Source of the DNA: Streptantibioticus ferralitis
GTDB lineage: Bacteria; Actinomycetota; Actinomycetes; Streptomycetales; Streptomycetaceae
DNA length: 64,000 nucleotides
NCBI RefSeq assembly: GCF_029223525.1
Contig: NZ_JARHTQ010000001.1
Span: 248,001 to 312,000 of the forward strand
Direction: 5' to 3'
Position numbers and translations under genes: made by a program. The notes below the pieces were generated by a model. The model ran no database searches. It saw only the letters and a program-made list of their open reading frames with translations, and had not been told where the DNA came from. Shown in pieces: positions 8,434 to 44,954 of this stretch (the first letter of the stretch is position 1; each line of letters begins with the position of its first letter).

Positions 8434-8440
8434 TGGTGCG

Positions 8441-8608: not shown

Positions 8609-8750
8609 CTCGTGCTCCTTCCTCTTCGGTACTTCCACCCACTGCCGGGCGGAAGGTCTGAGTCAACCCGCGCCCCGGCATCGGGCAGAAGCGGGGTTTC
8701 GGACGTGCGCCGCACACCCGGTCGGTGCTGATGGCCGATTAGACCGTGTG

Positions 8751-25728: not shown

Positions 25729-25781
25729 CCCCGGCTGCTCCCACCTTCACGAATGAACATCAGCTAAAGGATCGTCAAGCT

Positions 25782-27218: not shown

Positions 27219-27371
27219 GCTGATGGGCCAGTCGTCGGCCCGTCAGCGACGGGAAGCCGTCGGACTGCGCCTACTGGCCGCGGCGCCGGGTCGCGTGATG
27301 CTACAAGAGCGGAAGGAGGTGGATCGGCCGGGCTCGGGAAGCGGACAGAGTGCGCTCGGCCTTCCGGCACA

Positions 27372-28982: not shown

Positions 28983-30244
28983 GTGACGACCGGCTGGGTG
29001 ACGCCCTCGCCGCGCAGCGGGCCGAGGAGGTCCGGCGGGCCGCACGAGCGCTGCTGCGCCGACCGCTGCTGCGTGCGGGCAGTGACGAGTTCCGGCTGGT
29101 TCGGCAGCACGCGGCCGAACTGCGGACGTGGTTCGAGCGCAACACGGGCTGGGCCTTACTGGTGGACTCCGAGGTGGCCCGGCTGCGCCGCATCCCGGGG
29201 CGGGGCACCGATCCGAGCCACCCGGCGCGGGATCAGCGCACCTGGCTTCCGTTCTCCCGGCGGCGCTACGTCCTGGTCTGTCTGTGCCTGGCGGTGCTGG
29301 AGCGCGCCGAGCACCAGATCGCCCTGGGGCGGCTGGCGGAGCAGGCCGTGCTCGCGGCGGCGGACCCGGCACTGGAGGCGGCGGGCATCGACTTCACGCT
29401 GGCCGACCGCGAACAGCGCACCGATCTGGTGGCGGTCGTCCGGCTGCTGCTGCAGTGGGGCGTGCTGGCCAAGGTCGCCGGGGATGAGGATGCGTTCCTC
29501 AAGGCGGCCGGTGACGCCCTGTATGACGTGGACCGCCGCGTGCTGGCGGGGCTCCTGGTGTCCCGGCGCGGCCCGAGCACCGTGCGTGCCGACGGTTTCG
29601 AGGAGCGGCTTGCCGAGCTCAACGCCGAGGTGCTGCCGGACAGCGACGAGCTGCGCAATCGCGCGCTGCGCCACACCCTGACCCGGCGGCTGCTGGATGA
29701 TCCGGTGCTGTACCTGGACGAGTTGTCGGAGGCCGAGAGCGCGTATCTCGCCTCGCAGCGGGGCGCGTTGACCCGGCGGATCGGTGAGCTCACCGGCCTG
29801 GTGCCGGAGGTGAGGGCCGAGGGCGTCGCGATGGTGGACCCGGACGATGACCTGACGGATCTTCGGATGCCGGAACAGGGTACCGACGGACATGTGGCGC
29901 TGTTGGTCGCCGAGTACCTGGCGGGGAGGGGCGGCACCGTCCCGCTGGCGGAGCTCCACCGGCAGGTGACCGCGTGGGCGCTGGACCATGCCGGGTTCTG
30001 GCGGCGCAGCGCGACCGTTCCCGGCGCCGAGACCGAGCTGACCGAGCAGGCCGTGGAGCGGCTGGTCGCGCTCGGGCTGCTGGAGCGGGCGACGGCAGCC
30101 GACGGAGCCCCCGCCGTCCGGGCCCGCCCCGCACTGGACCGCTACCGCGTCGGCGAGGCGATCCTGCTGGAGCCGGGCCAGAGCGCCCCCAGGAAAGGCC
30201 GTCAGAAATCCGCGAAGAGCACGAAGGGCAAGAGGACCCGATGA
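28979..30244 (+). CDS. jetB: Wadjet component JetB (DUF2398/TIGR02678 family)
   Basis: About 421 residues. GTG 28979 overlaps the jetA stop (GTGA); GTG 28976 is an in-frame alternative. The sequence has the conserved block WLPFSRRRYVLVCLCLAVLE and tandem winged-helix features (VRLLLQWGVLAKVAGDEDAF). Family members are KITE-type subunits that hold the kleisin in SMC complexes. The C-terminus is Lys/Arg-rich (RKGRQKSAKSTKGKRTR). The stop overlaps jetC by 4 bases. The gene order and family set match the four-gene neighbourhood described for TIGR02677-02680. Confidence 0.85.
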   Translation: MSDDRLGDALAAQRAEEVRRAARALLRRPLLRAGSDEFRLVRQHAAELRTWFERNTGWALLVDSEVARLRRIPGRGTDPSHPARDQRTWLPFSRRRYVLVCLCLAVLERAEHQIALGRLAEQAVLAAADPALEAAGIDFTLADREQRTDLVAVVRLLLQWGVLAKVAGDEDAFLKAAGDALYDVDRRVLAGLLVSRRGPSTVRADGFEERLAELNAEVLPDSDELRNRALRHTLTRRLLDDPVLYLDELSEAESAYLASQRGALTRRIGELTGLVPEVRAEGVAMVDPDDDLTDLRMPEQGTDGHVALLVAEYLAGRGGTVPLAELHRQVTAWALDHAGFWRRSATVPGAETELTEQAVERLVALGLLERATAADGAPAVRARPALDRYRVGEAILLEPGQSAPRKGRQKSAKSTKGKRTR

Positions 30245-33200
30245 ACACGACTGCCGGGACACTGCTGCCGTCCCCCGGCCGCACCCGCTGGCAGCCGCTG
30301 CGGGTCGGCCTGGTCGACCTGTTCTACTACGACGTCGAGGAGTTCCACTTCCGCGCCGGCCGCCTGCTGTTGCGCGGCAACAACGGCACCGGCAAGTCCA
30401 AGGTGCTCGCCCTGACCCTGCCCTTCCTGCTGGACGGCGACCTATCCGCGCACCGGGTGGAGCCTGACGCCGATCCCAAGAAGCGGATGGAGTGGAACCT
30501 CCTGCTCGGCGGCGAGCACCCGCACCCCGAGCGGCTCGGCTACACCTGGATCGAGTTCGGCCGCCTCGACGAGGACGGCACCACGCACTACACCACCCTG
30601 GGCTGCGGCCTGAAGGCGGTGTCCGGCCGGGGCATCGCCCGGCACTGGTTCTTCGTCACCGACCAGCGGATCGGCCCGGAGCTGAGGCTGCTGGACTCCA
30701 CCGGCGCCGCGATCACCCGGGACCGGCTGGCCGAGGCCCTGGACGGTCGTGGCCTGGTGTACGACTCGGCGCGGGCCTACCGCCGGGCGGTGGACGAGGC
30801 GCTGTTCGGCCTCGGCGAGCAGCGGTACGCGGCCCTGGTCGACCTGCTGATCCAGCTGCGCCAGCCGCAGCTGTCCAAGCGGCCGAGCGAGAAGGCGCTC
30901 TCCCAGGCGCTCACCGAGTCGCTGCCGCCGATGGACCAGGCTGTGATCGCGGACGTCGCCGAGGCGTTCCGGTCTCTGGACGAGGAGAAGGACCAGTTGG
31001 CGGCGATGGTCGCCGCCGAGCGCGCTGCCCATGCCTTTCTCCAGCACTACCGCCGGTACGCGCAGGTCGCCGCCCGGCGCAAGGCCCGAACGCCCCGCAC
31101 ACGGCATTCGCGTTACGAGGCGCTGCGCGCCGACCTGAACACCGCCGAGCAGGAGTTCGAGGCAGCCGGCACGGCGCTCGCTGAGGCCGCGGCCCGGCTG
31201 GTAGAGCTCGACCAGCGGCGGGCGGGCCTGCGCGCCCGGGACGAGGTGCTGCGGGCGGGGCCGGAGATGCGCAGTGCCCGGGAGCTGGAACAGGCCGCCG
31301 AGCTGGCCGAGCGCACCGCCCGGGACGCCGGGCGCGCCGAGACCGACCGCGCAAGGGCCGAGGACGAGCTGGCCAGGTTCGCCGCCCGGCTCGGTGCCGC
31401 GCGCTCCCGGGCGGAGGCGGCCGAGCGTGCCCAGGAGGCCGCACTGGCCCGGGCCGGTGAGGCGGCGGCGGCCGCCCGGCTGGAGCGGGAGCACGCCGAC
31501 CGGGTCGTCCTCCCGCTCGCACAGGAGGAGACCCCCCAAAGCGCCCAGCGCGGCGCCGCCGAGTTCACCGCCCGCCGACTGCGTTCGATCGCCTTGGTCG
31601 AGGAGCACCTGGCAGCCGCCCAAGGCTCGTTGCGCGAACTTGACCGGTCGCGCCGCCAGTTGGAGGACGCGGACGCGGAACTGGCCCACCGCACCGAGCT
31701 GCGGGCCGACGCCGAGGAGAGCGCGGCGCAGGCCGGTCATGACTACCTCGCGGCCGTCCGCGCGCACTTCACCGGGTGCGCCCTGCTCCGCCCAGCCGAC
31801 CCCGAGGGTGTGCTCGACGACCTCGCCCAGTGGGTCGAGACGCTGGTCGGCGCCGACCCGTCCCGGATGGCCGCACAGCAGGCGGCCTCCGCGATCAATG
31901 CCGAACTCGCCCGCCGCCGCGCCGTCTTGGAGGCCGAGCAGCAGGAGGCGCAAGAGCTCCGCGACCGGCTTCAGGCCGAACTGTCCGAGTTGCGCGCCGG
32001 AGGCCAGCGCGCCCCGCGCGCCCCGCACACTCGCTCCCCCGAGGCGCGGCGGGACCGCCCCGGCGCACCGCTGTGGCGCCTGGTCGACTTCGCCGACGAG
32101 AGCCTGGCGGAGGACCAGAAGGCTGCTCTGGAGGCGGCGCTGGAGGCATCCGGACTGCTGGACGCCTGGATCGGCCCGGACGGCACGGTCGTCGCCGCCG
32201 GCACCTGGGACACCCTCGCCACCGTGGGCGCGCCGCTGGACGGCCCCTCGCTGGCGGGCGTCCTGCGCCCGGCGGTGAATCGTGACGACCCGGCCGCGGC
32301 GGCCCTGCCGAACGACCTGGTCGCCCGGCTGCTGGCCGGCATCGGCCTGCTCGGGCCGGACGAGTTGCTCCCCGGCACCGGTAGCTGGATCGGCCTGGAT
32401 GGCCGGTTTCGCCTCGGCGCGCTCACCGGCGCCTGGTCCAAGCCGGCTGCCGAGTACCTCGGCGAGGGCGCCCGCGAGCAGGCGCGGCGCGCCCGGATCA
32501 CCGCCATCGAAGCCGAACTCGCCCAGATTGCGGACCTGTTCGACCGCCTCGCGGCTCGTTTCGAGAGCCTCGACGCGGACGTGCGCACCCTGGCCGCCGA
32601 ACAGGCCCTGCCGGACGACGCCGCCCTGCGGGGTGCGCACGCCGCCGTGGCGGCGGCCCACCGGGAGCACTCCCGCGCCGCCGAGCGCCGAGAGGCGGCC
32701 GAGCACGCAGCCGCCGAGGCCGCCGCAGCCGCCGAGCAGGCCACGGCCGAACTGCGCTGCCTCGCCGAGGAGCTCGGTGTGCCCACTACCGCCACCGGCC
32801 TGCGCGAGATGCGCGAAGCCCTCGGCGGCTACCGCGAAACCCTGGCGGCGCTCTGGCCCGCCGTACGCGAGGCCCGAGCCGCCCGCGCCGCACTCGCCGC
32901 CGAGCAGAGCGACCACACCCGCGCCGCAGAGCACACCGCCGAGCTCGCCGAGCGCTCCCGCATGGCGGCACGCGAGGCCGTCGGCGCCGCGGAGCGCCAC
33001 GAGACGCTCGCCGCCACCGTCGGCGCCGCCGTCGCCGAGCTGCAACGCCAACTCGCCGACGTGGCCGCCGCGCTGCGCGCATGCGAGGAGGCCGAGCGCG
33101 CCGCCCACCGCGAGCAGAACGCCGCCACCGGTCGCCGGGCCGCCGCCGACGCCGTGCGCAGCCGGGTCCGCGCCGAGATCGAGGAGGCCGGCCGGACCCG

Positions 33201-34350
33201 CGCCGAGGCCATCGACGCGCTGCGCCGCTTCGCCGCCACCGGCCTGCTCGCCGTCGCCCTGCCCGGCCTGGAGATCACCTCCGACTCGTGGGCGCCCGAA
33301 CCCGCCGTCCGCCTCGCCCGCGCCGTCGAGCGCGAACTGGAGTCCGTGGACGACTCCGACCCGGCCTGGGAGCGCGTTCAGCGCAAGATCACCGAGGAGC
33401 TCAAGGAGCTATCCGACGCGCTCGCCCGCCATGGCCACACGGCCGCCGCCCGGATGCTGGAGGACGGCCTGGTGGTCGACATCGTCTTCCAGGGCCGCGA
33501 ACGCTCAGTCCCCGAGCTGGCCGCCGCGCTGAGCACCGAGGTCGCCGACCGCCAGCATCTGCTCTCCGCCCGCGAGCAGGAAATCCTCGAGAATCACCTG
33601 ATCACCGAGGTGGCCGGAAACCTTCAGGAACTCGTCGGCGCCGCCGAGCAGCAGGTGCTGCGGATGAACGAGGAGCTCAAGGACCGCCCGACCAGTACCG
33701 GCATGCTGCTCCGTCTGGTCTGGCGCCCCGCCCGCAACGCCCCCGGCGGTCTGACCGCCGCCCGCGACCGGCTGCTGCGCCAGTCCTCCGACGCCTGGAA
33801 CGCCGCCGACCGCGCCGCCCTGGGCGAGTTCCTCCAAGCCCAGATCGGGCGTGCCCGCACCGACAACCCGGCCGGCACCTGGCTGGAACACCTCACCACG
33901 GCCCTGGACTACCGTGCGTGGCACGAGTTCGGTATCGAGCGGCACCAGCACGGCAGGTGGCAGTCGGCCACCGGACCGGCCTCGGGCGGCGAGCGGGTGC
34001 TGTCCGTCTCCTTGCCGCTCTTCGCCGCCGCCTCCTCCCACTACGCCTCGGCTGGCACCCCGCACGCCCCGCGCCTGGTCACCCTGGACGAGGCGTTCGC
34101 CGGTGTGGACGACGACTCCCGTGCCAAGTCCCTCGGTCTGCTCGGAGCCTTCGACCTGGACGTGGTGATGACCTCCGAACGCGAATGGGGCTGCTACCCG
34201 CAGGTCCCGGGCCTGGCCATCGCCCAGCTCTCCCGCGTGGACGAGATCGCAGCCGTCCTGGTCACCCGCTGGGAGTGGGACGGCCGCCGGCGCACCCGCA
34301 TCCCCGACGCCGAAGTGCCGGGCCAGCGCCAGGCGGGCCTGTTCGCCTGA
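30241..34350 (+). CDS. jetC: Wadjet SMC-like ATPase JetC (TIGR02680 family)
   Basis: 1369 residues. Walker A is GNNGTGKSK at residues 46-54. Two long Ala/Glu/Arg-rich coiled-coil arms (about 270-600 and 760-1000) flank a hinge-like region around 610-750 (LWRLVDFADESLAEDQKAAL). The C-terminal ATPase half holds the signature SGGERVLSV at about 1249 and Walker B LVTLDEAFAGVDDD at about 1278. The start is fixed by the ATGA overlap with jetB; the open frame further upstream is a shadow. It powers loop extrusion on plasmid DNA in Wadjet systems. All ATPase motifs are intact. Confidence 0.9.
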   Translation: MNTTAGTLLPSPGRTRWQPLRVGLVDLFYYDVEEFHFRAGRLLLRGNNGTGKSKVLALTLPFLLDGDLSAHRVEPDADPKKRMEWNLLLGGEHPHPERLGYTWIEFGRLDEDGTTHYTTLGCGLKAVSGRGIARHWFFVTDQRIGPELRLLDSTGAAITRDRLAEALDGRGLVYDSARAYRRAVDEALFGLGEQRYAALVDLLIQLRQPQLSKRPSEKALSQALTESLPPMDQAVIADVAEAFRSLDEEKDQLAAMVAAERAAHAFLQHYRRYAQVAARRKARTPRTRHSRYEALRADLNTAEQEFEAAGTALAEAAARLVELDQRRAGLRARDEVLRAGPEMRSARELEQAAELAERTARDAGRAETDRARAEDELARFAARLGAARSRAEAAERAQEAALARAGEAAAAARLEREHADRVVLPLAQEETPQSAQRGAAEFTARRLRSIALVEEHLAAAQGSLRELDRSRRQLEDADAELAHRTELRADAEESAAQAGHDYLAAVRAHFTGCALLRPADPEGVLDDLAQWVETLVGADPSRMAAQQAASAINAELARRRAVLEAEQQEAQELRDRLQAELSELRAGGQRAPRAPHTRSPEARRDRPGAPLWRLVDFADESLAEDQKAALEAALEASGLLDAWIGPDGTVVAAGTWDTLATVGAPLDGPSLAGVLRPAVNRDDPAAAALPNDLVARLLAGIGLLGPDELLPGTGSWIGLDGRFRLGALTGAWSKPAAEYLGEGAREQARRARITAIEAELAQIADLFDRLAARFESLDADVRTLAAEQALPDDAALRGAHAAVAAAHREHSRAAERREAAEHAAAEAAAAAEQATAELRCLAEELGVPTTATGLREMREALGGYRETLAALWPAVREARAARAALAAEQSDHTRAAEHTAELAERSRMAAREAVGAAERHETLAATVGAAVAELQRQLADVAAALRACEEAERAAHREQNAATGRRAAADAVRSRVRAEIEEAGRTRAEAIDALRRFAATGLLAVALPGLEITSDSWAPEPAVRLARAVERELESVDDSDPAWERVQRKITEELKELSDALARHGHTAAARMLEDGLVVDIVFQGRERSVPELAAALSTEVADRQHLLSAREQEILENHLITEVAGNLQELVGAAEQQVLRMNEELKDRPTSTGMLLRLVWRPARNAPGGLTAARDRLLRQSSDAWNAADRAALGEFLQAQIGRARTDNPAGTWLEHLTTALDYRAWHEFGIERHQHGRWQSATGPASGGERVLSVSLPLFAAASSHYASAGTPHAPRLVTLDEAFAGVDDDSRAKSLGLLGAFDLDVVMTSEREWGCYPQVPGLAIAQLSRVDEIAAVLVTRWEWDGRRRTRIPDAEVPGQRQAGLFA

Positions 34351-34352
34351 CC

Positions 34353-35606
34353 ATGGATCTTCCCCGCCTGCGGCGCCTCCTCGGCGGCCCCGAGACCGCC
34401 TGGTTGCTGGAACGCGCCCGCGACCGAATGGCCGCCCTGCGGCCGCTGGACACCCCCGCCACCCTCAAGGCCGCCACCCCTGCACAGCGCCGCGCGGTCG
34501 AGCTGCTGCTCGGCCGCCGCCTGCGGGCGGGCACCTCCCTGACCGTGCCGCTGGCCGAGGTCGACCGCGTCCTGCGCGAGTCGTTGGCCTGCCCGGACGG
34601 CCTCGCGGCTGCCGTGGTCGCCCTCACCGGTCCGGTCACCGACAAACGAGCCCAGGACGCCGCCCTCGCCGCCGCCTGGCAGCAGGCGCTGGCCGAACTC
34701 GACCACCCCGCCGTCACCGACCGGCCCGAACTCGTACCCTGGCGAGCCAAGGTGGAGTCGACCGGCCTGCTCAAGCGCCTCTCGCAAGCCGACCCGACCA
34801 CCGCCCGCCGACTTGCCGCCGACACGGTACGGGTACTCTCCGCGCTTCCGGCCGACGGTCTTACCCTCCCCGTCCTCGCCGCCCGCACCCTCGGCGACGC
34901 CCACGCACTGGACGACGGCCGCCCGCTCGCCGCGGTCGTCCTGTCGGCCGTCCGCGCCCTCGCCGCACTGCCCGCCGAGGCCACCACCGGCGCCGAAGGC
35001 CGCCGAGCGGCCTGGGCCACCGTCGGCGTGGCGTTGGACGAACTCTCCTCGCGGGTCCTCGTCCTCGGCCTGCCCGGTTCACCGCGTACCACGCCCGGCC
35101 GTGTCCTCGCCGCCGCGCACGAAGACGGTGAACCGTGCCTGCTGACACTTCGCCAGCTCACCCGGCAGCCGGCCGATCTCGGGCTGGCCGGGCGCACCGT
35201 GCGGGTCTGCGAGAACCCGGCCGTCCTCGCCGCGGCAGCGGACGAACTCGGCCCCCACTGCCCTCCCCTGGTCTGCGTCGAGGGCAACCTCTCCGCCGCC
35301 GCGCGCACCCTCCTGCGCCACCTCTCCGACCAGGACTGCCCCATCGCCTACCACGGCGACTTCGACTGGGGCGGCTTCCGGATCGCCACCAGTGTGCTGC
35401 GCCTGCCGACCGCCACACCCTGGCGGTACGACACCCCCTCCTACCTGACCGCCGTCGAACGCGGCCTCGGCGCCCCGCTCACCACCGGATCCCCGATCCC
35501 CACGCCCTGGGACCCTGCCCTGAGCACTGCCATGGCCCGCCACGGCATCCGCGTCGAGGAGGAACACCTGATCGACCGACTACTCGCCGACCTCCGCCAG
35601 TCATAG
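34353..35606 (+). CDS. jetD: Wadjet nuclease JetD (TIGR02679, Toprim-type)
   Basis: 417 residues, starting 2 bases after the jetC stop. The N-terminal half resembles the DUF3323 part and the C-terminal half the DUF2399 Toprim part. TVRVCENPAVLAAAADELG (about residue 284, conserved Glu), VCVEGNLSAAARTLL and AYHGDFDWGGFRIA (about 334, DxD) are the metal-binding elements. JetD cuts the extruded plasmid. The open frame that fuses this gene with a jetC shadow upstream is an artefact. With all four genes complete and catalytic residues present, the system looks functional. Confidence 0.85.
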   Translation: MDLPRLRRLLGGPETAWLLERARDRMAALRPLDTPATLKAATPAQRRAVELLLGRRLRAGTSLTVPLAEVDRVLRESLACPDGLAAAVVALTGPVTDKRAQDAALAAAWQQALAELDHPAVTDRPELVPWRAKVESTGLLKRLSQADPTTARRLAADTVRVLSALPADGLTLPVLAARTLGDAHALDDGRPLAAVVLSAVRALAALPAEATTGAEGRRAAWATVGVALDELSSRVLVLGLPGSPRTTPGRVLAAAHEDGEPCLLTLRQLTRQPADLGLAGRTVRVCENPAVLAAAADELGPHCPPLVCVEGNLSAAARTLLRHLSDQDCPIAYHGDFDWGGFRIATSVLRLPTATPWRYDTPSYLTAVERGLGAPLTTGSPIPTPWDPALSTAMARHGIRVEEEHLIDRLLADLRQS

Positions 35607-35720
35607 GGCCGCTCAGCTCCCGGTCGAGCCCGGTCGGTGACTCGGGCAGCCGACGAGGGCCCCCGGGCCAGACCCACCGGCGCCTCACCGTCAAGATGGC
35701 ACATGTATTAGCGTCGGTAC

Positions 35721-35960
35721 ATGTCCATGAAGAGGACCAACGTCTACGCCGACCCCGAAGATCTCGCCCTCATCAAGGAAGCCGCAAGCCGTCGGGGCAT
35801 CCCCGAGGCGGAGATCATCCGCGAAGGCATTCACCTGGCGGCCATGGCAAACCGTGTCTGGGACGAGCCCTTCGACTGGCCCACCTTCGACGGCAGCGGT
35901 GAACCGGTCACCGGCGAAGAGGTCACCGCGGCGGTCGCCAGGGGAGCCTCCAGGCGGTGA
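35721..35960 (+). CDS. VapB-like ribbon-helix-helix antitoxin
   Basis: A 79-residue protein. KRTNVYADPEDLALIKEAAS and RRGIPEAEIIREGIHLAAMA form a CopG/Arc-type ribbon-helix-helix. The C-terminal tail (DWPTFDGSGEPVTGEEVTAA) would bind the toxin. It overlaps the PIN-toxin start by 4 bases (GTGA), the usual vapBC layout. Since the partner toxin is broken, the antitoxin is probably an orphan left by decay. Confidence 0.8.
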   Translation: MSMKRTNVYADPEDLALIKEAASRRGIPEAEIIREGIHLAAMANRVWDEPFDWPTFDGSGEPVTGEEVTAAVARGASRR

Positions 35961-36386
35961 TCGTAATCGCCGACACCTCCGGCATCATCGCCGCCTCCGA
36001 CCGGAATGCCCCCGAGGCCGCTACCTGCCAGGGCGTACTGCGTGATGCCGGTGATCATCTCCCCGCTGGTGCTCGCGGAGGTCGACCACCTGGCCAAGGT
36101 CCGCTTCGGGCCCACCGCCCGGACCACGATCATCGCGTTCATCCTCACGCAGGTGCACAGCCTGCGATTCCAGGTCCCAGAGACCAGCACCGAAATCCTG
36201 GGCGCAGCACAAGCCGTCCAGCGGTGACACGCCGACCTGGACCTAGACCTCGCCGACGCGGTGAACATCGCGCTGGCGGCCGAGTATCGCACCGACGCCG
36301 TACTGACGCTGGACCGCCGCGACTTCCGCGCGGTGCGTCCACTCACCCCGCACAAGGCGTTCCGGCTACTGCCCGACGACCTGTAG
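35957..36386 (+). pseudogene. VapC-like PIN-domain toxin, frameshifted and with a nonsense codon
   Basis: It begins with GTG 35957 as IVIADTSGIIAASDRN, which has the first PIN aspartate. Near 36045 the homology moves to the +1 frame (VIISPLVLAEVDHLAKVRFG, second acidic residue). At 36225-36227 a TGA interrupts. Then the same frame continues LDLDLADAVNIALAAEY and DAVLTLDRRDF (third and fourth acidic residues), to the stop at 36384-36386. All four acidic positions are recognisable, but one frameshift and one nonsense codon separate them. No active toxin can be made. Confidence 0.8.
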
Positions 36387-36389
36387 ACA

Positions 36390-36480
36390 GCGCCCGGCGG
36401 TACGCCGGTGAGAAAGTCCCTGAGAAGTCCCTGACGTTGCCGTGGATCAAGGAATTGCCCCATAAGCCTGGGTCGGCGCG
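36390..36480 (+). pseudogene. Relic of an integrase C-terminus
   Basis: Directly after the PIN relic, a short frame reads RRYAGEKVPEKSLTLPWIKE and then LPHKPG. This parallels the tail of the complete integrase (QKIPEKSLGAPWIKEL). No catalytic motif is present, so only the end of a second, related integrase gene survives. DNA similarity to 27063-27110 is clear. Confidence 0.65.
36410..36457 (+). repeat. Integrase-tail direct repeat, right copy
   Basis: 48 bases matching 27063-27110 at 39 positions in the same orientation. This marks the right boundary of the Wadjet/toxin-antitoxin block. Confidence 0.65.
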
Positions 36481-36607: not shown

Positions 36608-36660
36608 GATGCCCGATGCCCGATGCCCGATGCCCGATGCCCGATGCCCGATGCCCGATG
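36608..36660. repeat. Heptanucleotide tandem repeat (GATGCCC)7
   Basis: Seven exact consecutive copies of GATGCCC (36608-36656) plus a partial eighth (GATG). It sits in a stretch of about 380 bases (36387-36770) with no intact gene, 3' of the minus-strand P450. Such tracts are prone to slippage. Confidence 0.9.
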
Positions 36661-36770: not shown

Positions 36771-38006
36771 TCACCCCCGGGGCTGGACACCGTCCAGGGC
36801 GACGGGCAGATGGCGGGGGCCGCGCAGGATCGGGTTGCGCCGGTAGGGGGGCGGGTCCGCGACCAGTCGGGGGTTGCGCAGTCTGCGCGCGAGTTCGGTG
36901 AGCGCGAACTGTGCCTCCAGCCGGGCGAGCGGTGCTCCGAAGCAGATGTGGATCCCGCTGCCGAAGCCCAGATGCTGGTTGTCCCGGCGATCGGGGTCGA
37001 AGCGGTCGGGCTCGCTGAAGCGCCGCGGGTCCCGGTTGCCGGACGCCAGGGCGAGCCAGACGGACGAGCCTTCGGGGATGACGGTTCCCGCGATGTCGAC
37101 GTCGGCCAACGCGACGCGCTGCGGCAGCAGTTGGACCGGCGGCTCGTAGCGCAGCAGTTCCTCGACGAGGGGGGATGCCAGATCGGGGTCGTCCGCGAGC
37201 CGTTTGAGATGCTCCGGCTGCCGCAGCATGGTCAGCATGCCGTTGGTGATGAGGTTGACGGTGGTCTCATGACCGGCGATGAGGAGCAGTACCGCGGTGG
37301 TGATCTGTTCGATCGGTGACATCCTCCCGTCCGGGCCGTGGTCGGTGGCGAGCACGGAGAGCATGTCGTCGCTGGGGCTGCGGCGGTACTCCTCGATGAG
37401 TCCGCCGAGGTATCCGCCGAGTTCGATCCTGGCCTGCTGGGCGGCGCGCTGCCGGTCCGCTTGGCCCTCGTCCCCCGTGGGGTCCAGACCCGCGACGACG
37501 GCGTCGGCCCAGCCGTGGAAGCGGGATTCGTCCTCGCGCGGAACGCCGAGCAGGCGGCAGATCACCGTGACCGGGAACGGGTAGGCGACCTCGTCGACCA
37601 GGTCCACCTGCTCCTTGCCCTGCAGTTCGTCGATGACGTCGGAGATGATCCGCAGCAGCTCCCCCCGCATGTCGAACACCCTCCTCGGGCTGTGCGGCGG
37701 CCCGAACGCCCGCATCGCGAGCCGCCGCAGCCGGTCGTGCTCGGGCGGATCGAGCCTGATGAAGGAGGGCGGCAGTCCGGACTCCTCCTCCGCGGCCAGC
37801 CCGCCGCCGCGGCCGACGAGGTTGCGGATGTCCGAGCTGAGCCGCGGGTCGTGCAGGAGGCTGATGATCTCGTGGTACGTGCCGACCAGGTAGGTGCCGT
37901 CGTCCTGGCGGGCCACCGGCGTCCTGCGCAGTTCGGCGTAGAGCGGATACGGGTTGGCGCGGTTGGCGTAGTCGGTGATCTGCTGGAGCAAGGTGCCGGA
38001 GGTCAT
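36771..38006 (-). CDS. Cytochrome P450, divergent from the cyclodipeptide synthase
   Basis: A 411-residue class I P450. The I-helix is [13 protein letters not shown] (E-T pair), the K-helix is EELLRYEPPVQ, and the heme loop is [18 protein letters not shown] with Cys about residue 355. ATG 38006 is preceded by CAGGAG. It shares the 225-base divergent promoter region with the cyclodipeptide synthase gene. That makes it a candidate second tailoring oxidase for the cyclodipeptide, though the pairing is inferred from position. It is of the general actinobacterial CYP105/107-like type, not CYP121-like. The substrate is unknown. Confidence 0.85.
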   Translation of the reverse strand: MTSGTLLQQITDYANRANPYPLYAELRRTPVARQDDGTYLVGTYHEIISLLHDPRLSSDIRNLVGRGGGLAAEEESGLPPSFIRLDPPEHDRLRRLAMRAFGPPHSPRRVFDMRGELLRIISDVIDELQGKEQVDLVDEVAYPFPVTVICRLLGVPREDESRFHGWADAVVAGLDPTGDEGQADRQRAAQQARIELGGYLGGLIEEYRRSPSDDMLSVLATDHGPDGRMSPIEQITTAVLLLIAGHETTVNLITNGMLTMLRQPEHLKRLADDPDLASPLVEELLRYEPPVQLLPQRVALADVDIAGTVIPEGSSVWLALASGNRDPRRFSEPDRFDPDRRDNQHLGFGSGIHICFGAPLARLEAQFALTELARRLRNPRLVADPPPYRRNPILRGPRHLPVALDGVQPRG

Positions 38007-38231
38007 GGACGGGTCTCCTGCGGTCTGCGGGGTCGGTCTGGTCGACCGCCGTGGGGGCGTTCATGCTCATAGAGGTGTCGATCGATCAATTCAGGACGCC
38101 CAGCCCATACTTCCAGCCAACGTCGGACGGTGACGGTCACCCTCCGGCGTGGCGAGGTAACTTCGGGTCGCTGCCGCCACACCAGGAGCACGAGGCTCCC
38201 AGGGACATGCGGCACGAGAGGTGAAACTGCC

Positions 38232-38984
38232 TTGCGCACCAGCCAAATCATGCTGGCTGAGACCCGCACGACAGAGCCTGAGGAAGAATTCGAGGTCTTC
38301 CCGTTCACCACCGCCTGCCAGGTCATCTGGGAGGAGGGTGACCATGTCCTCATCGGCGTGAGCCCGGGAAACAGTTACTTCTCCGCACCGCGCATCTGCG
38401 CTCTCGCACAGTGGGCGGCACGCCGTTTCGAGAAGGTGGACTTCGTCCACGCCGATCTCCACGTCGACGCGTTGTTCGCCGCGTTCGGGTACACGCCCGA
38501 GCATGCCGCCCGCCGCGCCATCAAGGAGATCAAGGCGGTACGGCGGAGAATCCTGCGCGGAGTTGAGGTGTCCGGCGCCGCGGATCGCATCCGGGTCAGC
38601 GCGCTGTCGGAATTCACCGGTCATCCGGAGTACCGGCTGCTGCGCCGCCGGGTGGACTTCCTGCTCGACCACGACGCCGAACTGCGCCAGGGCTGCGACG
38701 CGATGATCCAGCAGTTCCTCGCGCCCCGGCTGGTGGACTCCGGCCAGCCCGCCACCGCGGAGCAACTGCGGGCCTGCCGCGACTACATCGCCGCCGAGCT
38801 GCCGTTCTTCATCGACACCCCCAGCATTCTGCGGGTGCCCTCGTCGGTGTGCTGCTATCACGTCGTCCTGCCGCTCACCGAAGTGCTGTACGGGCGCGGT
38901 GGGGGGCTGCGGGCGACCCGTAACCAGGCGTACGCGGTGGTCCGGCCGGAAAGGACGGTGCGCGATGACCGTCGAGCAGCGTGA
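38232..38984 (+). CDS. Cyclodipeptide synthase, NYH type, Rv2275-like
   Basis: 250 residues from TTG 38232, supported by GAGAGGTGA 8 nt upstream; the frame is open further upstream without support. It joins two aminoacyl-tRNAs into a cyclodipeptide. The nucleophile is Ser44 in IGVSPGNSYFS, with Asn47 behind it. Tyr185 and Glu189 lie in RDYIAAELPFF, and Tyr209-His210 in PSSVCCYH. All six sit exactly 7 positions after the AlbC residues S37, N40, Y178, E182, Y202 and H203 as I remember them, placing it in the NYH subfamily. RGGGLRATRNQAYAVV and EFEVFPFTTACQVI resemble the M. tuberculosis cyclo(Tyr-Tyr) synthase Rv2275. It overlaps the P450 gene by 20 bases. Confidence 0.92.
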   Translation: MRTSQIMLAETRTTEPEEEFEVFPFTTACQVIWEEGDHVLIGVSPGNSYFSAPRICALAQWAARRFEKVDFVHADLHVDALFAAFGYTPEHAARRAIKEIKAVRRRILRGVEVSGAADRIRVSALSEFTGHPEYRLLRRRVDFLLDHDAELRQGCDAMIQQFLAPRLVDSGQPATAEQLRACRDYIAAELPFFIDTPSILRVPSSVCCYHVVLPLTEVLYGRGGGLRATRNQAYAVVRPERTVRDDRRAA

Positions 38985-40179
38985 GGGGGGCGCGGACCTG
39001 CCGCTGGAATTCCCGTTCTCCCGGCGGGGGGACGCGGTTCCGGCCGAATGCGCGTGGCTGCGCGAAAAGCGGCCCGTCGCACGGGTCCGCACACTGACCG
39101 GCGACGTGGCCTGGCTGGTGAGCAGTTACGCACTCGCCAAACAGGTGCTGGAGGACGAGCGGTTCAGCCTGCGGCACACGGCGGCCCCGGGAGTCCCCCG
39201 GCAGTACGCGTTGACGATTCCCCCAGAGGTCGTCGACAACATGGGCGAGATACACAGCGCCGGACTGCGCGAAGCCGTGATGAGGTCGCTCGCACCGCGT
39301 TCGGATCCCGGCCTGGCCGACTGGCTGCGCGACCGGGCGCACGACCTGATCGACGCCCTGGTGGCCGAGGGCGCCCCGGTCGATCTGCGGGCCGGCTTCG
39401 CCGATCCGTATTCGGCGGCGCTGCACTGCAAGGTGATCGGGGTGCCGTACGCGGACTGGCGGCGGCTGATGTCAGGACTGGACATCGCGTTCATGACCAG
39501 TGCGCGGCCGTTCGCGGGTGCGACGGCGAGCTGGCGCAAGGACCACGGCTACATGCTGGAGCGGCTGCGCCAGGCCGAACCGAACGGCGGCGGCCTGCTG
39601 GGCCGGTTCGCCGCGCTGCGCGCGCCGGAGGACGGCGGTGGGCCGTCGGACGAGCAGTTGGCGACCGTGGCGGTCTCGCTGTTCGGCGCCGGTGCGGTGA
39701 GTACGTCGGCGTTCCTGGTCCATGCCGTCCTGGCGCTGGTCCGCGAACCGGCGCTGGTGCGGCGGCTCCGGGACGAACCGGAGTCGGTGGGGCGCGCGGT
39801 CGAGGAGCTGCTGCGCTACAACCTGTCCATCGGCGACGGCCTGCCCCGGCTGGCGACGGCGGACGTACGGCTCGGCGATGTGCTGGTCAGGGCGGGAGAA
39901 CTGGTTCTCGTCCTGGTCGAGGGCGCCAACTTCGATCCTGGGGTGTTCGCGGACCCGGAACGGCTCGACCTCGACCGGGCGGACAACCCGCATCTGTCGT
40001 TCGGCGCCGGTTCGCACTTCTGCCCGGCCTCCGCGCTCGGCCGCCTGCACGCGCGGGTCGCGCTGGGGGCGCTGGTGGAGCGGCTGCCGTCACTGCGGCT
40101 CGCCGTGCCTCTGGGGCAGCTGGTCTGGCGTACCGGCTTCATCAAGCGGCTGCCGGAGCGGCTGCCGGTCACCTGGTAG
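38965..40179 (+). CDS. CYP121-like cytochrome P450 (mycocyclosin synthase homolog)
   Basis: A 404-residue P450 that matches remembered CYP121 almost throughout: GDVAWLVSSYALAKQVLEDE, TIPPEVVDNMGE, LHCKVIGVPYADW, LSIGDGLPRLATADVRLGD, VLVLVEGANFDPGVF, SHFCPASALGRLHARVA, QLVWRTGF. The I-helix LFGAGAVSTSAF lacks the usual acid-alcohol pair, as in CYP121. Heme Cys353 corresponds to C345. CYP121 Gln385 and Arg386 are Ile393 and Lys394 here. CYP121 couples the two phenol rings of cyclo(Tyr-Tyr). The gene overlaps the cyclodipeptide synthase gene by 20 bases, so the product is expected to oxidise that cyclodipeptide. The pocket changes leave the exact reaction open. Confidence 0.9.
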   Translation: MTVEQREGGADLPLEFPFSRRGDAVPAECAWLREKRPVARVRTLTGDVAWLVSSYALAKQVLEDERFSLRHTAAPGVPRQYALTIPPEVVDNMGEIHSAGLREAVMRSLAPRSDPGLADWLRDRAHDLIDALVAEGAPVDLRAGFADPYSAALHCKVIGVPYADWRRLMSGLDIAFMTSARPFAGATASWRKDHGYMLERLRQAEPNGGGLLGRFAALRAPEDGGGPSDEQLATVAVSLFGAGAVSTSAFLVHAVLALVREPALVRRLRDEPESVGRAVEELLRYNLSIGDGLPRLATADVRLGDVLVRAGELVLVLVEGANFDPGVFADPERLDLDRADNPHLSFGAGSHFCPASALGRLHARVALGALVERLPSLRLAVPLGQLVWRTGFIKRLPERLPVTW

Positions 40180-40196
40180 AGCGAACCGCATAAAAT

Positions 40197-40235
40197 GCGG
40201 CGTTCCGGGCAGCCCTCCGCCGTCCGGAACGCCGC
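40197..40235 (+). terminator. Terminator after the CYP121-like gene
   Basis: A perfect 12-bp stem GCGGCGTTCCGG / CCGGAACGCCGC with a 15-nt loop, beginning 18 bases after the stop. Confidence 0.75.
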
Positions 40236-40570
40236 TATTCGTTCCTAATGCCGCATACCGATTCACGCCCCCGCAAGGCTATTACCAAGCATTAGCCACC
40301 ACTTTCAAGGGTGGTGGCGCGTATCACCTTCGATTCCACCCGCGCTACGCCGGTTATGCGCCTTACGCCCGAAATGCCCGCTTGTCTCCTCCGCGCCCTC
40401 CGTGCGAGAGTCGTCGACAACGGCCCCCATTGACCCGGGCTCGGTCGTGCCACGTGCGCCGTGGACCACACCCCCCCTTGCTCCTCGGCGTCACGAAGAA
40501 GCCCCCATCGCGTCCGCAACCCGGCGCTGGGGGCTTCTCGTTTGTCAGCGTTCTTTTGTCAGCGTTCTTG
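40236..40570. other. Intergenic region with hairpins
   Basis: About 330 bases without a gene between the P450 and the ATPase. It contains an 8-bp perfect hairpin at 40295-40318 (GCCACCAC/GTGGTGGC), the terminator at 40498-40537, and three near-tandem copies of TTGTCAGCGTTC at 40542-40579 that run into the ATPase stop. Confidence 0.6.
40498..40537 (-). terminator. Bidirectional hairpin terminator
   Basis: GAAGCCCCCA / TGGGGGCTTC, a 10-bp perfect stem with a 20-nt loop. Located downstream of the minus-strand ATPase gene; it could also stop transcription from the left. Confidence 0.7.
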
Positions 40571-41065
40571 TCAGCGTTCGACGACCCGCTTCTCGAACCA
40601 GGTGGTCTTGCCACGGGGCAGCAGATCCACCCCCCACCGGTCGGAGAGCTTGTCGACCAGGAACAGCCCGCGCCCGCTGGTGTCCAACTCCCGCACCGGC
40701 AGCAGACAGGGCAGCGCGCGGGACGGGTCGCGGACCTCGACGCGGATCCAGCCCCGGCGGCGCAGCATCCGCAGACCGAAGGTGCGTGCCCCGGTGTGCC
40801 GGACGGCGTTGCCCACCAACTCCGAGACCAGTAACTCGCAGTCCTCACCGAGCTGCGGCAGCGCCCACAGCCGGAGCACCGCCAGGGTGAGCCGGCGTGC
40901 GGTGGACGCGGACTCCGGGCGCGAGGTGAGCCGCACCTCGTCGAGCGACGGGTTGCCGAGCAGTACGAGAGTGCTGGCGTCGTACCGGTCCGGCGGCATC
41001 GACACCCACGCCGCCGCGGTGATGCTCGCCCGTTGTGCCTGCTCAGATCCTCCCCGACCCACCAT
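40571..41065 (-). CDS. RsbW-like ATP-binding regulatory protein
   Basis: About 164 residues from ATG 41065 (the frame extends to 41197; the start is uncertain). It is a GHKL-type kinase domain of the anti-sigma kind: CELLVSELVGNAVRHTGART (N-box), a short VEVRDPSR (G1 region) and TSGRGLFLVDKLSDRWGVDL (G2). Streptomyces has many such stand-alone RsbW/SpoIIAB-like ATPases, which bind sigma factors or anti-sigma antagonists. There is no adjacent sigma or STAS gene, so the partner is unknown. I associate this gene with the conserved chromosome near glgX, and from here on the content looks core. Confidence 0.75.
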   Translation of the reverse strand: MVGRGGSEQAQRASITAAAWVSMPPDRYDASTLVLLGNPSLDEVRLTSRPESASTARRLTLAVLRLWALPQLGEDCELLVSELVGNAVRHTGARTFGLRMLRRRGWIRVEVRDPSRALPCLLPVRELDTSGRGLFLVDKLSDRWGVDLLPRGKTTWFEKRVVER

Positions 41066-41329
41066 GCGTTCATCATGGCCGCCCAAGCACCGGTTCGGGC
41101 CAGAACCGGGGGAATTGAACCCACCCCAACGATGCTTCCCGGCCACCTCGAAGGCATATGCCGAAGGCAGCAGCACCCCCTCCACAGCCCCGCCCACCTG
41201 CTGTGATCACCAGCGGACCGAGGGTGACGAGCCGTCGCGGACCAGACTCCCTTAAGCCTCTCTTAAGGTGGCCTTAAGCTGATGTCCGCTGCCGCCCGTC
41301 ACCCACACGGCCGCCCAACCGGCCCTGGC

Positions 41330-42097
41330 TCAGCCGAACTTGGCCTTACCCGGCCCCTCCTCGACGAAGCTCCGCATGCCGATCTCGCGGTCCTGGGTCG
41401 CGAACAGCCCGGCGAACAGGCCCCGTTCGATCGCCAGGCCGGTCTCCAGATCCGTCTCCAGGCCGCTGTCGACGGCCTCCTTGGCCGCGCGCAGCGCCAG
41501 CGCCGGGCCCTTGGCGAGCTTCGCCGCCCAGGTGTACGCCTCCTCGTAGACCTTCTCGGCGGGGACCACCCGGTCGACCAGGCCGATGGTCAACGCCTCG
41601 TCGGCGGTCACCATCCGGCCGGTGAAGACGAGGTCCTTGGCCTTGGCCGGGCCGACCAGGCGCGACAGCCGCTGGGTGCCGCCCGCGCCCGGAATCAGGC
41701 CGAGCAGGATCTCCGGCTGGCCGAGCTTGGCGTTCTCCGCCGCGATCCGTACGTCGGCGCACAGCGCCAACTCGCAGCCGCCGCCCAGCGCGTAGCCGGT
41801 CACCGCGGCCACCACCGGCTTGGGGATGCGCGCCACGGCGGTGAAGGAGTCCTGCAGCGCACGGGCCCGCACCGCCATGTCCTCGTACCCCATGGCCTGC
41901 ATTTCCTTGATGTCCGCGCCCGCCGCGAACACCTTCTCGCCGCCCCATACGACGACGGCCCGTACGTCCTCGCGGCGGGTGGCCTCCTCCGCGACCTCGC
42001 GCAGCCGGTCCTGGGTGGCCACGTCCAGCGCGTTCATCGGCGGACGGTCCAGGCGGATGATGCCGACGCCGTCGGCGGCCTCAAGGTGAACAGTCAT
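41330..42097 (-). CDS. Enoyl-CoA hydratase/isomerase
   Basis: A 255-residue crotonase-fold protein. The oxyanion-hole segment is KVFAAGADIKEM. The catalytic glutamates are in GYALGGGCELALCADVRI and LGQPEILLGLIPGAGGTQRL. It hydrates 2-enoyl-CoA to 3-hydroxyacyl-CoA in fatty acid beta-oxidation or related routes. Length is normal and the motifs complete. It is monocistronic, separated from the L,D-transpeptidase gene by a strong terminator. Confidence 0.92.
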   Translation of the reverse strand: MTVHLEAADGVGIIRLDRPPMNALDVATQDRLREVAEEATRREDVRAVVVWGGEKVFAAGADIKEMQAMGYEDMAVRARALQDSFTAVARIPKPVVAAVTGYALGGGCELALCADVRIAAENAKLGQPEILLGLIPGAGGTQRLSRLVGPAKAKDLVFTGRMVTADEALTIGLVDRVVPAEKVYEEAYTWAAKLAKGPALALRAAKEAVDSGLETDLETGLAIERGLFAGLFATQDREIGMRSFVEEGPGKAKFG

Positions 42098-42175: not shown

Positions 42176-43414
42176 TCACTGACCGGCGGTCCACTGCGAC
42201 CACGGCATGTTCCAGCCGTTGAAGCCGTTGTCCGGCGCGACCGTCTTGTCGTTGGAGTTCTTGACCACCACCACGTCGCCGATCATCGAGTGGTCGTAGA
42301 ACCAGGCCGCCGGGCTGCCGTTGTCACCGCCGCCGCGGATGTCGTGCAGGCCGACGCAGCCGTGGCTGGTGTTCTCGCTGCCGAACACCGATGTGTTGCC
42401 CCAGTAGTTGCCGTGGATGAACGTCCCGGACTGGCTGAGCCGCATCGCGTGCGGCACGTCCTTGATGTCGTACTCGCCGCCGAAGCCGACGGTGGAGCCG
42501 TCCATCCGGGTCACCGGGTCCTTCTCGCTGATGACCATCTTCCCGTTGTACGTGGTGTGCTCGGGGGCACCCGCGGAGATCGGGATGGTCTTGATCGTCT
42601 TGCCGTCCTGGGTCACGGTCATCTCGTGCGAGGCGGCGTCAACGTAGCTGACCTGGTTGCGGCCGATGGTGAAGTGCACGTCCTTGGACTGCGAGCCGTA
42701 CACGCCCGGCGAGCTCTGCACGCCGTTCAGCTTCAGGCTCAGGGTGACCTTCGTACCGGGCGCCCAGTAGGACTCCGGGCGGAAGTCGATGCGCTGGTTG
42801 CCGAACCAGTGGCCGACGATCGGGACGGACGGGGAGGCGGTCACCTTGATGCCGTTCTGCACCGCCTTGGTGTCGTCGATCGGCCGGTTGAAGTTGATCG
42901 AGACCTCGGTGCCGACGCCCACGGTGGCGCCGTCATCGGGAGTGAAGAAGCCGATGAAGCTGTCCTTCGGGACGACCGTGGTGAACGTGGCGTGCTTGGC
43001 CGACTCGCGGCCCTGCGAGTCCTTGGCGAGGGCGTCCACCGTGTACTTGGTGGAGGTACTGAGGTTGCTGTCCGGCACCCAGCTGGTGCCGTCCCCGGAG
43101 ATCTTCCCCGCGATCGCGGTGCCCTTGGCGTCCTTGACGGTCACCTGGCTCAACTTGCCCTGGCCGACGGATATCTTCAGCGCACCGCTGGTGGCGACAT
43201 CGGTCGCGCCGTCCTTCGGCGCGACGTTCACCACGGCCTGCGAAGCCTGTTTGTCCGACCCGCCGGAACCCGCCTTGTCCGATCCACCGGAACCGTGTCC
43301 GCCGCACGCGGTCGCCAGCAGCAGTACCGCGCCGATCGCCCCGGCCAGCACAGACCGCTTGGCGCCCGACGCCGCCCGGGTGGACCGCCGCACCGGCGGC
43401 TGATGTGACAGCAA
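42176..43414 (-). CDS. L,D-transpeptidase lipoprotein
   Basis: 412 residues from TTG 43414, which follows GGGGAGAGACGAG. The lipoprotein signal sequence ends VLLLATAC, with Cys acylated. A Gly/Ser-rich spacer follows, then two Ig-like domains (GATDVATSGALKISVGQG; GATVGVGTEVSINFNRP) and the YkuD catalytic domain with HGNYWG and NTSHGCVGLHD (catalytic Cys). It forms 3-3 cross-links in peptidoglycan outside the membrane. The architecture equals that of mycobacterial LdtMt2. A paralog lies immediately upstream. Confidence 0.9.
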   Translation of the reverse strand: MLSHQPPVRRSTRAASGAKRSVLAGAIGAVLLLATACGGHGSGGSDKAGSGGSDKQASQAVVNVAPKDGATDVATSGALKISVGQGKLSQVTVKDAKGTAIAGKISGDGTSWVPDSNLSTSTKYTVDALAKDSQGRESAKHATFTTVVPKDSFIGFFTPDDGATVGVGTEVSINFNRPIDDTKAVQNGIKVTASPSVPIVGHWFGNQRIDFRPESYWAPGTKVTLSLKLNGVQSSPGVYGSQSKDVHFTIGRNQVSYVDAASHEMTVTQDGKTIKTIPISAGAPEHTTYNGKMVISEKDPVTRMDGSTVGFGGEYDIKDVPHAMRLSQSGTFIHGNYWGNTSVFGSENTSHGCVGLHDIRGGGDNGSPAAWFYDHSMIGDVVVVKNSNDKTVAPDNGFNGWNMPWSQWTAGQ

Positions 43415-43694
43415 CTCGTCTCTCCCCTCGCGCGACCGTCCGCTTCCGCCCCCGGGCCCGCCTTGACGGCATGCCCCGGTAGCGATCCTGCCCGGTCGAA
43501 CTCGCACTGATCCCCCGTGTATGCGCCGAGATGCCTTGACCGCACCCGCACAGGCGTCATCCACGCTCGCCGATAGATAACCACACTGATGGTGCGTAGG
43601 AAGCTACGGGATTGTCACCGTTCCGTCCCAGTCCGCTGCGAACCGCCCGCAACTGGGTACAGAAGGGCGGACATTCGGCCTCAGCCGGGTGGGA

Positions 43695-44954
43695 TCAGGG
43701 GGAGCTCACCGCCGACCCCGCGAGCCACTGCTCCCACGTCAGGTTCCAGCCGCTGAGCCCGTTGTCGGGTGCGACGGTCGCGTCATGGGCGTTGACCACC
43801 TCCACCACATCGCCGACCAGCGAACTGCCGAAGAACCAGCCCGCGGGGGTCTGTGCGCCGCCGCCCTTGACGTCGGACAGGCCGACGCAGCCGTGACTGG
43901 TGTTCGCGGCGCCGAAGGTGTCCTTCGGCGACCAGTAGTTGCCGTGCACGAACGTCCCGGACTGGGTGAGCCGCATGGCGTGCGGCACGTCCGGGATGTT
44001 GTACTCGCCGCCGTAGCCGACGGTGTCCCCGTTCATCCGGGTCACCGGGAGCTTCTCCGAGATCACCATCTTCCCGCCGTACGTGGCGTGCTCCGGGCTG
44101 CCGGTACTGACCGGCAGGGTGCGCACCACCTGCCCGTCACGGCGCACGGTCATGGTGTGCGCCTCGGCGTCCACCACACTGGTCTGGCTGCGGCCGATGG
44201 TGAAGACCACGTCCTTCTGCTGGCTGCCGTACACGCCGGGCGCGCCCTGCACGTCGCGCAGCCGCAGCCGCAGGTCGACCTTGGTGCCGGGCGTCCAGAA
44301 GTGCTGCGGACGGAAGTCGAGCCGCTGGGCGCCGAACCAGTGCGGGGCCACCTGGGCGGCGGGCTGGGCGGTGACGGTGATCGCGCGCTCCACCGCGGCG
44401 CGGTCGGCCACCGAGCGGTTGAAGGTGATCGACACGATCATGCCGGCGCCCACCGTCGCCCCCGCTTCCGGGGTGTAGAAGGCGATGAGTCGGTGCTGCG
44501 GCACCAAAGTGGTGAACTCCGCGTGCTTGGCGGCCCGCCGCCCGTCCGAGTCCTCGGCGAGCGCGTCCACCGTGTACTTGGTCTCCAGCGCCAGCTTGCC
44601 CGTCGGATGCCAGGCGTGCCCGCCGGAATCGATCCGGCCCGGCACCTGGGTGCCGGCCGCGTCCGCCACCTTCACCTGGGTGAGCACGCCGCCCTCGGCC
44701 GTCACCGACAGCGTCCCCGTGGCCGGTACGCCGGAGGCGCCGTCCCGCGGGGTGATCCGGATCGTCGTCTGGGAGACCGCCGGGGCGGCCGCGCCGGTGC
44801 CGCGCCCGTCCCCGCCCGCACCGCTGCCGGTGCCGCCGCCGCCAGTGCACCCGGCCAGCACGACCGCACCGGCCAGCACGCATCCGGCCACCGATCCCGT
44901 ACGCGGCAGCCTTCGTACCGCCCCGCGCACCCACGCAACCACTGCACTCGTCAC
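43695..44954 (-). CDS. L,D-transpeptidase lipoprotein, paralog
   Basis: 419 residues from GTG 44954. The signal peptide ends VVLAGC (lipobox), followed by a Gly-rich linker, two Ig-like domains (GASGVPATGTLSVTAEGG; GATVGAGMIVSITFNRS) and YkuD with HGNYWS and NTSHGCVGLSD. It is the same design as the neighbour, with enough sequence difference to suggest an old duplication. The two genes are separated by about 280 bases, so each likely has its own promoter. Divergent from glgX. Confidence 0.9.
   Translation of the reverse strand: MTSAVVAWVRGAVRRLPRTGSVAGCVLAGAVVLAGCTGGGGTGSGAGGDGRGTGAAAPAVSQTTIRITPRDGASGVPATGTLSVTAEGGVLTQVKVADAAGTQVPGRIDSGGHAWHPTGKLALETKYTVDALAEDSDGRRAAKHAEFTTLVPQHRLIAFYTPEAGATVGAGMIVSITFNRSVADRAAVERAITVTAQPAAQVAPHWFGAQRLDFRPQHFWTPGTKVDLRLRLRDVQGAPGVYGSQQKDVVFTIGRSQTSVVDAEAHTMTVRRDGQVVRTLPVSTGSPEHATYGGKMVISEKLPVTRMNGDTVGYGGEYNIPDVPHAMRLTQSGTFVHGNYWSPKDTFGAANTSHGCVGLSDVKGGGAQTPAGWFFGSSLVGDVVEVVNAHDATVAPDNGLSGWNLTWEQWLAGSAVSSP

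Follow-up and report, generated by a model that had tools for sequence, protein, structure and literature searches.

Cyclodipeptide synthases (CDPSs) take aminoacyl groups from charged tRNAs and carry the first of them on a catalytic serine. Several pathways are described in which the resulting cyclodipeptide is modified by a partner cytochrome P450. In the guanitrypmycin-type (gut/ptm) pathways the P450 couples a tryptophan cyclodipeptide to a purine: GutD5737 of Streptomyces purpureus joins cyclo(L-Trp-L-Trp) (cWW) to guanine, the S. lavendulae enzyme GutD2774 and the S. xanthophaeus enzyme GutD5414 couple cWW mainly to hypoxanthine (PMC7954767), and PtmB and GutD24283 couple cWW to both guanine and hypoxanthine (PMC13122648). 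For gut products, [M+H]+ values of about 522.20 (cWW plus guanine) and about 507.19 (cWW plus hypoxanthine) are reported (PMC13122648). The characterised P450s of this GutD/PtmB clade differ in the linkage they make. The gym loci of Streptomyces, by comparison, are reported to yield mycocyclosin and guatyromycines from cyclo(Tyr-Tyr) (cYY) (PMC10092475). Here we analysed a CDPS-P450 gene pair at positions 38232-40179 of a 64,000-nucleotide stretch (the window) of the Streptantibioticus ferralitis genome (contig NZ_JARHTQ010000001.1, positions 248,001 to 312,000). A sequence-only reading had described the pair as similar to Rv2275/CYP121 of Mycobacterium tuberculosis and had expected a mycocyclosin-like or otherwise oxidised cyclodipeptide.

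Our best reading is that the pair belongs to the known guanitrypmycin family as an ordinary if somewhat divergent member, and that the mycocyclosin interpretation should be dropped. The analysis establishes homology, catalytic residues, pocket motif, clade and shared gene neighbourhood for the locus. We consider it likely that the two genes form a two-gene guanitrypmycin-type pathway with a Trp cyclodipeptide-purine product. The general similarity to the mycobacterial pair stood, as did the expectation of an oxidised cyclodipeptide, which is the predicted product of a homologous CDPS-P450 pair; the tyrosine-derived product did not.

The CDPS gene (38232-38984, plus strand) begins with TTG, with an alternative ATG at 38250, and its reading frame overlaps by 20 nt that of the P450 gene (38965-40179, ATG start) on the same strand. 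Both family assignments were confirmed. The CDPS scored 281.1 bits against the Pfam CDPS model and 272.8 bits against the general model TIGR04539 (cut-off 45), and it is the single match to PF16715 in the whole genome. Alignment placed its key residues Ser44, Asn47, Tyr185, Glu189, Tyr209 and His210 at exactly +7 relative to AlbC 37, 40, 178, 182, 202 and 203, just as the sequence-only reading had it, and this SNYEYH set puts the enzyme in the NYH subfamily. Among the seven matches with solved structures, Rv2275 (2x9q) ranked highest at 207 bits, and AlbC scored 179. The score against the NCBIfam cyclodityrosine synthase model NF052540 was 267.9 bits, below its cut-off of 300.

Substrate choice in this family has been related to two amino-acid pockets, P1 (AlbC residues 33, 35, 65, 67, 119, 185, 186 and 200) and P2 (AlbC residues 152, 155, 156, 159, 204, 206 and 207) (PMC5816076). 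According to the same study, tyrosyl requires an Asn at P1 position 8 (N251 of Rv2275), and Trp enzymes are recognised by the pair V/I-A at positions 3-4, with one Phe exception (PMC5816076). In the window CDPS, P1 reads LGVALFFC (residues 40, 42, 72, 74, 125, 192, 193 and 207), with the V-A pair in place. It agrees with the Trp set LGVALFF[AS] at 7/8 positions and with VGVTMLFN, the P1 of Rv2275, at 3/8; the cYY motif VG[VI]TMLFN with its terminal Asn is absent. The P2 motif is MQFPVLP, compared with LRFTQLP in Rv2275. By its P1 motif the enzyme falls in the cW2X (Trp) group of CDPSs, and it is predicted to incorporate Trp, giving cWW or another Trp-containing cyclodipeptide (cWX).

For a wider comparison, we used the best 80 of 204 relatives found in species genomes; 29 further loci (L083-L111) stayed outside the trees. 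Before the P450 tree was built, P450 identity and CDPS motif had been used to name two groups, a GutD side (52 loci) and a cYY side (28 loci). Three loci (L009, L010 and L027) have a P450 without a CDPS match nearby, and two CDPSs (L068 and L074) are incomplete and enter neither the CDPS tree nor the motif counts. Every readable CDPS neighbouring a GutD-side P450 carries LGVA[LV]F[FL][SA] (49/49), and every complete one on the cYY side carries VGVTMLFN (26/26). The two CDPSs nearest to that of the window by identity (L050 and L017, 161/247 each) both show the Trp pattern.

The P450 gave the same picture. Its matches among solved structures were 9o4d (609 bits), PtmB (586), GymB1 (484) and CYP121 (452), and its identity was 73.6% to 9o4d, 67.7% to PtmB, 68.0% to the P450 of S. 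xanthophaeus NRRL B-5414 (L047), 69.0% to that of S. lavendulae (L043, from strain CCM 3239 and not the characterised NRRL B-2774), and 58.3% to GymB1 (8q6z). The protein does follow CYP121 almost end to end, as had been noted, with 213/391 aligned positions identical (54.5%). The 9o4d stretch is identical to the P450 of S. purpureus JCM 3172 (L020) at 389/390 positions, so this structure is apparently that of the S. purpureus GutD; it is probably the GutD5737 of the literature (strain NRRL B-5737), given the species and the single P450 match at E <= 1e-70 in the JCM 3172 genome. The PtmB stretch is identical to the P450 of Kitasatospora mediocidica (L025) at 391/391 positions; solved PtmB structures are 8yxt, 8yy7, 8yyp, 8yz8 and 8yza. 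The 9o4d entry carries the name 'Cytochrome P450 121', which is likely to lead annotation astray. GutD5414 and GutD5737 are given as 57% identical in the review (PMC7954767), but we found 74% between the single matching P450s of the two species' genomes (L047 and L020).

In the P450 tree (85 rows), the window, 9o4d, PtmB and 52 loci (55 rows) fall on one side of a branch of length 1.16 with 100/100 support, and CYP121, GymB1 and 28 loci on the other; within its side, the window lies in a 20-row subset that includes PtmB (100/98). The motif of the neighbouring CDPS matches this split in 75/75 loci with a readable motif. An approximately unbiased (AU) test rejected a clade of the window, CYP121 and the Nocardia locus L075 (p-AU 6e-7). 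Grouping away from CYP121 had been set beforehand, together with failure to bind the cyclodipeptide, as the outcome that would overturn the CYP121 assignment, and by tree position the window P450 belongs with GutD/PtmB.

Individual residues separate the same two groups. The I-helix GAGAVST occurs in 48/52 GutD-side loci and 0/28 cYY-side loci, and the tail motif GFIK (CYP121 positions 383-386) in 50/52 and 0/28, the exceptions being L010, with GFVK, and L052, which is cut off there. Both signatures, defined in the present analysis, are found in the window P450, together with Ser229 (52/52 GutD-side loci) and Gly163 (49/52). All 28 cYY-side loci instead have GAGV[IV]ST, Met-Lys at 385-386, Thr229 and Ser163. 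The I-helix, the tail and the replacement of the CYP121 active-site residues Gln385 and Arg386 by Ile and Lys had been described accurately, but they mark the GutD side and not CYP121. The warning that the outcome may differ from that of CYP121 was sound; its supposed sign, the Ile-Lys pair, was not, since GFIK is normal in this group of P450s. Nor is the Gln385/Arg386 pair diagnostic of the CYP121 kind, as it is missing from the 28 cYY-side loci too.

The surroundings of the pair provided a further line of evidence. Downstream lie a small ATPase-like open reading frame (ORF; 40571-41197, minus strand), an enoyl-CoA hydratase gene supported by an NCBIfam match (41330-42097, minus strand), two tandem L,D-transpeptidase-like genes (42176-44954), for which no NCBIfam match was found, and a GlgX-like gene; apart from the hydratase, these names come from the reading frames. 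At thresholds of 40% identity and 60% coverage, the P450 is close to the ATPase-like, hydratase and transpeptidase-like genes in 30/80 relatives, all of them among the 52 GutD-side loci, and these neighbours were found beside 0/28 cYY-side loci. Among the 30 loci, 27 have the P450 with a CDPS and three the P450 alone, and S. purpureus, S. lavendulae and S. xanthophaeus are included; among the 22 other GutD-side loci, the flanks of L028, L031, L039, L046, L050 and L052 are too short to show neighbours. The window has the neighbourhood defined from these 30 loci, with a distance of 0.4 kb from the P450 to the ATPase-like ORF, compared with about 2.4-3.7 kb in the relatives inspected. From the shared neighbours and sequence, the window locus is probably orthologous to the gut locus of Streptomyces. 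The two L,D-transpeptidase-like genes are each about 59% identical to the other's counterpart in congener G002.

A comparison with congeners bears on the history of the locus. The pair-bearing segment (38037-40217, 2181 bp; blastn against L120) corresponds to 61 bp at the same place in G002, where the counterpart of a divergently transcribed P450 (82%) stands directly beside the downstream neighbour genes. The empty site at first suggested a recent insertion of the pair. Since 30 other loci have the same neighbours, we dropped this explanation and favour loss; the pair was probably lost in G002. In congener G001, the enoyl-CoA hydratase lies at a contig end, so this genome has no bearing on the choice between insertion and loss. 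The pair's P450 had no match at E <= 1e-100 in either congener. The divergent P450 itself (36771-38006, minus strand; top solved matches CYP164A2 and PikC) has counterparts in both of these genomes; we therefore rejected it as a pathway gene, and it probably lies outside the pathway. Across the family, 114/394 genomes have a P450 match at E <= 1e-100 with both tree sides pooled, so the wider P450 kind is common. Three loci, L009, L010 and L027, have a GutD-side P450 (at about 8001-9212) in the usual gut neighbourhood and no CDPS detected in the 8-kb flanks. In the P450 of L010 (Streptomyces violascens), the I-helix is also changed, to STGAVST, and Phe168 is replaced by His, which suggests decay or a changed role.

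By analogy with the characterised homologues, we infer the substrate, the base, the radical mechanism and the regiochemistry as follows. The CDPS would load the first aminoacyl group, with Trp in pocket P1, from charged tRNA onto Ser44 and would then close a Trp-containing cyclodipeptide, most likely cWW. The P450 would oxidise the indole, with hydrogen abstraction as the probable route, and join it by a C-N or C-C bond to guanine, hypoxanthine or both.

Several observations weigh against this guanitrypmycin-type assignment. On the CDPS side, Cys207 at P1 position 8 occurs in 0/49 GutD-side CDPSs, which have Ser or Ala there, and a P1 of LGVAIFLC, also ending in Cys, is listed with Phe in P1 (PMC5816076). 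The Phe exception to the V/I-A rule, CDPS 66, makes cFY, so a Phe enzyme can carry the pair (PMC5816076). Nor is P2 a predictor: the S. lavendulae CDPS gives 62% cWW along with cWP, cWA and others, and S. purpureus JCM 3172, with motifs LGVALFFS/MTFPQIP, is listed with Tyr in P2, yet Table 1 of the same study gives cWW (PMC5816076). Rooting the CDPS tree on AlbC leaves the window outside a set of 58 rows, the cYY enzymes among them (99/82); the AlbC branch is very long (2.26). For the P450, the AU test let stand a tree that places the window with all cYY-side P450s, that is, as the first branch off the GutD side (p-AU 0.204). Finally, three P450 residues of the window occur in none of the 80 loci: Ser181 (Asn in 80/80 loci), Arg183 (Tyr or Asn in the 52 GutD-side loci; Asp, Glu or Asn in the 28 cYY-side loci) and Glu88 (Asn in 76/80).

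These observations have to be weighed against the other possible products. The two tree results, the top rank of Rv2275 among the solved CDPSs, the closeness of the cyclodityrosine synthase score to that of the general model and the 54.5% identity to CYP121 are what can be said for a pair in which the CDPS makes cYY and the P450 forms mycocyclosin, as CYP121 does, possibly with purine adducts as with GymB. Such an outcome is extremely improbable and was set aside on pocket motif and phylogeny: P1 has Cys207 where the tyrosyl-essential Asn would stand, Ala instead of Thr at position 4 and Leu instead of Met at position 5, the score remains under the specific cut-off, the P450 tree places the window away from CYP121 and GymB1, and Ser229, Gly163, GAGAVST and GFIK are all GutD-side residues unlike those of the 28/28 cYY-side loci. 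Cys207 could instead admit Phe to P1, leading to a Phe-based product (cFX) as the listed LGVAIFLC might suggest, but the window motif differs from that one at two further positions and both of the nearest CDPSs carry the Trp pattern; we regard this as very unlikely. It is also improbable, if less remote, that a Trp cyclodipeptide is made and the P450 dimerises it, hydroxylates it or closes an internal ring. CDPS-linked P450s of other kinds are described as dimerising Trp cyclodipeptides (PMC7954767), and residues 181 and 183, where the window has its own Ser and Arg, contact ligands in some CYP121 structures (PMC11084333); however, the dimerases NascB and NasF5053 match the window P450 at about 190 bits, compared with 609 for 9o4d, and of 30 pocket columns only 183, with its Arg, departs from every residue seen in the 52 rows of the clade.

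That last count also led us to reject an active site enriched in unusual residues. The 30 columns were picked from published CYP121 contacts (columns 88 and 181 lie outside them), and 1/30 held an unseen residue compared with 20/402 columns overall; adding column 181 makes it 2/31. Within the guanitrypmycin-type assignment, the cyclodipeptide could be a Trp dipeptide other than cWW (cWY, cWF, cWL and the like) with the purine still coupled by the P450. The exact P2 motif MQFPVLP occurs in 0/49 GutD-side CDPSs, and for related CDPSs the reported products are cWY, cLW or mixtures (PMC5816076). As the characterised pathways of S. purpureus, S. lavendulae, S. xanthophaeus and K. azatica, and PtmB when fed cWW, are described as using cWW, we think such a variant unlikely. 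A new purine-cyclodipeptide adduct, in which Cys207 and the P2 motif alter the amino-acid pair and/or Ser181 and Arg183 alter the base or the joined atoms, can be entertained only tentatively, as a rather doubtful prospect. The guanitrypmycin-type pathway therefore remains our preferred reading, and this divergent member is a reasonable candidate for heterologous expression, which does not imply new chemistry.

Other features of the pair and the window were recorded as well. Directly 3' of the P450 stop, a GC-rich hairpin (40197-40235, plus strand) is a possible transcription terminator: the fold of 40180-40260 has an energy of -35.8 kcal/mol (z -4.49), and 0/200 shuffles were equally stable. 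A simple scan requiring a T-run found no terminator. Neither gene contains a TTA codon, and no further tailoring gene is apparent among the ORFs from the divergent P450 to 40571. We rejected plasmid carriage of the pair, as a plasmid collection held no match to its P450 at E <= 1e-60, and CDPS matches, present in 20 records, were all below 60% identity. Beside the divergent P450, GATGCCC is repeated perfectly in tandem (7.6 copies of 7 bp, 36608-36660). Further upstream, four genes (JetA-JetB-JetC-JetD, 27372-35606) match the PADLOC Wadjet type 2 models (JetA2, B2, C2 and D2) and are preceded by a tyrosine-recombinase-like gene (25629-27218) whose NCBIfam matches fall below cut-off. The 3' end of the recombinase gene (27064-27121) and a stretch beyond JetD (36411-36468) carry the two copies of a 58-nt direct repeat (78% identical), as if this Wadjet island (25629-36468) were an integrated element. 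At 18662-23824, two more P450-like genes stand in a row with genes that look like a small GTPase and a sensor kinase, an arrangement resembling a Streptomyces conservon; these names come from the reading frames.

The analysis corrects a natural misreading: the pair looks like Rv2275/CYP121, and its top solved P450 match bears the name 'Cytochrome P450 121', but its place is in the guanitrypmycin family. Simple sequence tests split the two kinds among the relatives analysed: the P1 motif across the 75 readable CDPSs and, in the P450s, Ile versus Met at position 385 and Ser versus Thr at position 229. Loci of the gut type keep the same neighbours in 30/80 relatives, and one congener lacks the pair there.

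Among the closest known systems is GutA/GutD5737 of S. purpureus (guanitrypmycin C3-1), with which the pair shares a two-gene CDPS-P450 operon, a Trp-type P1 and the same downstream neighbours; relative to strain JCM 3172, the window P450 is 74% identical (over the 9o4d stretch) and the CDPS 60% (150/249). The window locus differs from that of S. purpureus in that the latter has YVTN-propeller-like and polysaccharide-deacetylase-like genes, so named from their reading frames, between the P450 and the ATPase-like ORF, Ser instead of Cys in P1, and Asn181/Tyr183 instead of Ser/Arg in the P450. PtmA/PtmB of K. mediocidica is similar in its P450, which is 68% identical and belongs to the same 20-row subset, but its CDPS is only 52% identical (126/242), and none of the window's neighbour genes turned up beside that locus. 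GutA/GutD24283 of K. azatica resembles the predicted pathway in its chemistry, which the literature describes as coupling of cWW to guanine or hypoxanthine in the manner of PtmB. The gym loci are likewise a widespread Streptomyces two-gene pair with nucleobase coupling; unlike the predicted pathway, theirs is derived from cYY, and GymB1, 58% identical, falls on the opposite side of the tree, the side whose 26 readable CDPSs carry the motif for cYY. Rv2275/CYP121 of M. tuberculosis has the same CDPS subfamily, overall P450 kind and gene order, and is 46% (103/224) and 54.5% identical to the window CDPS and P450, respectively, but its pocket is of the cYY type where that of the window is of the Trp type, and its P450 lies on the opposite side of the tree.

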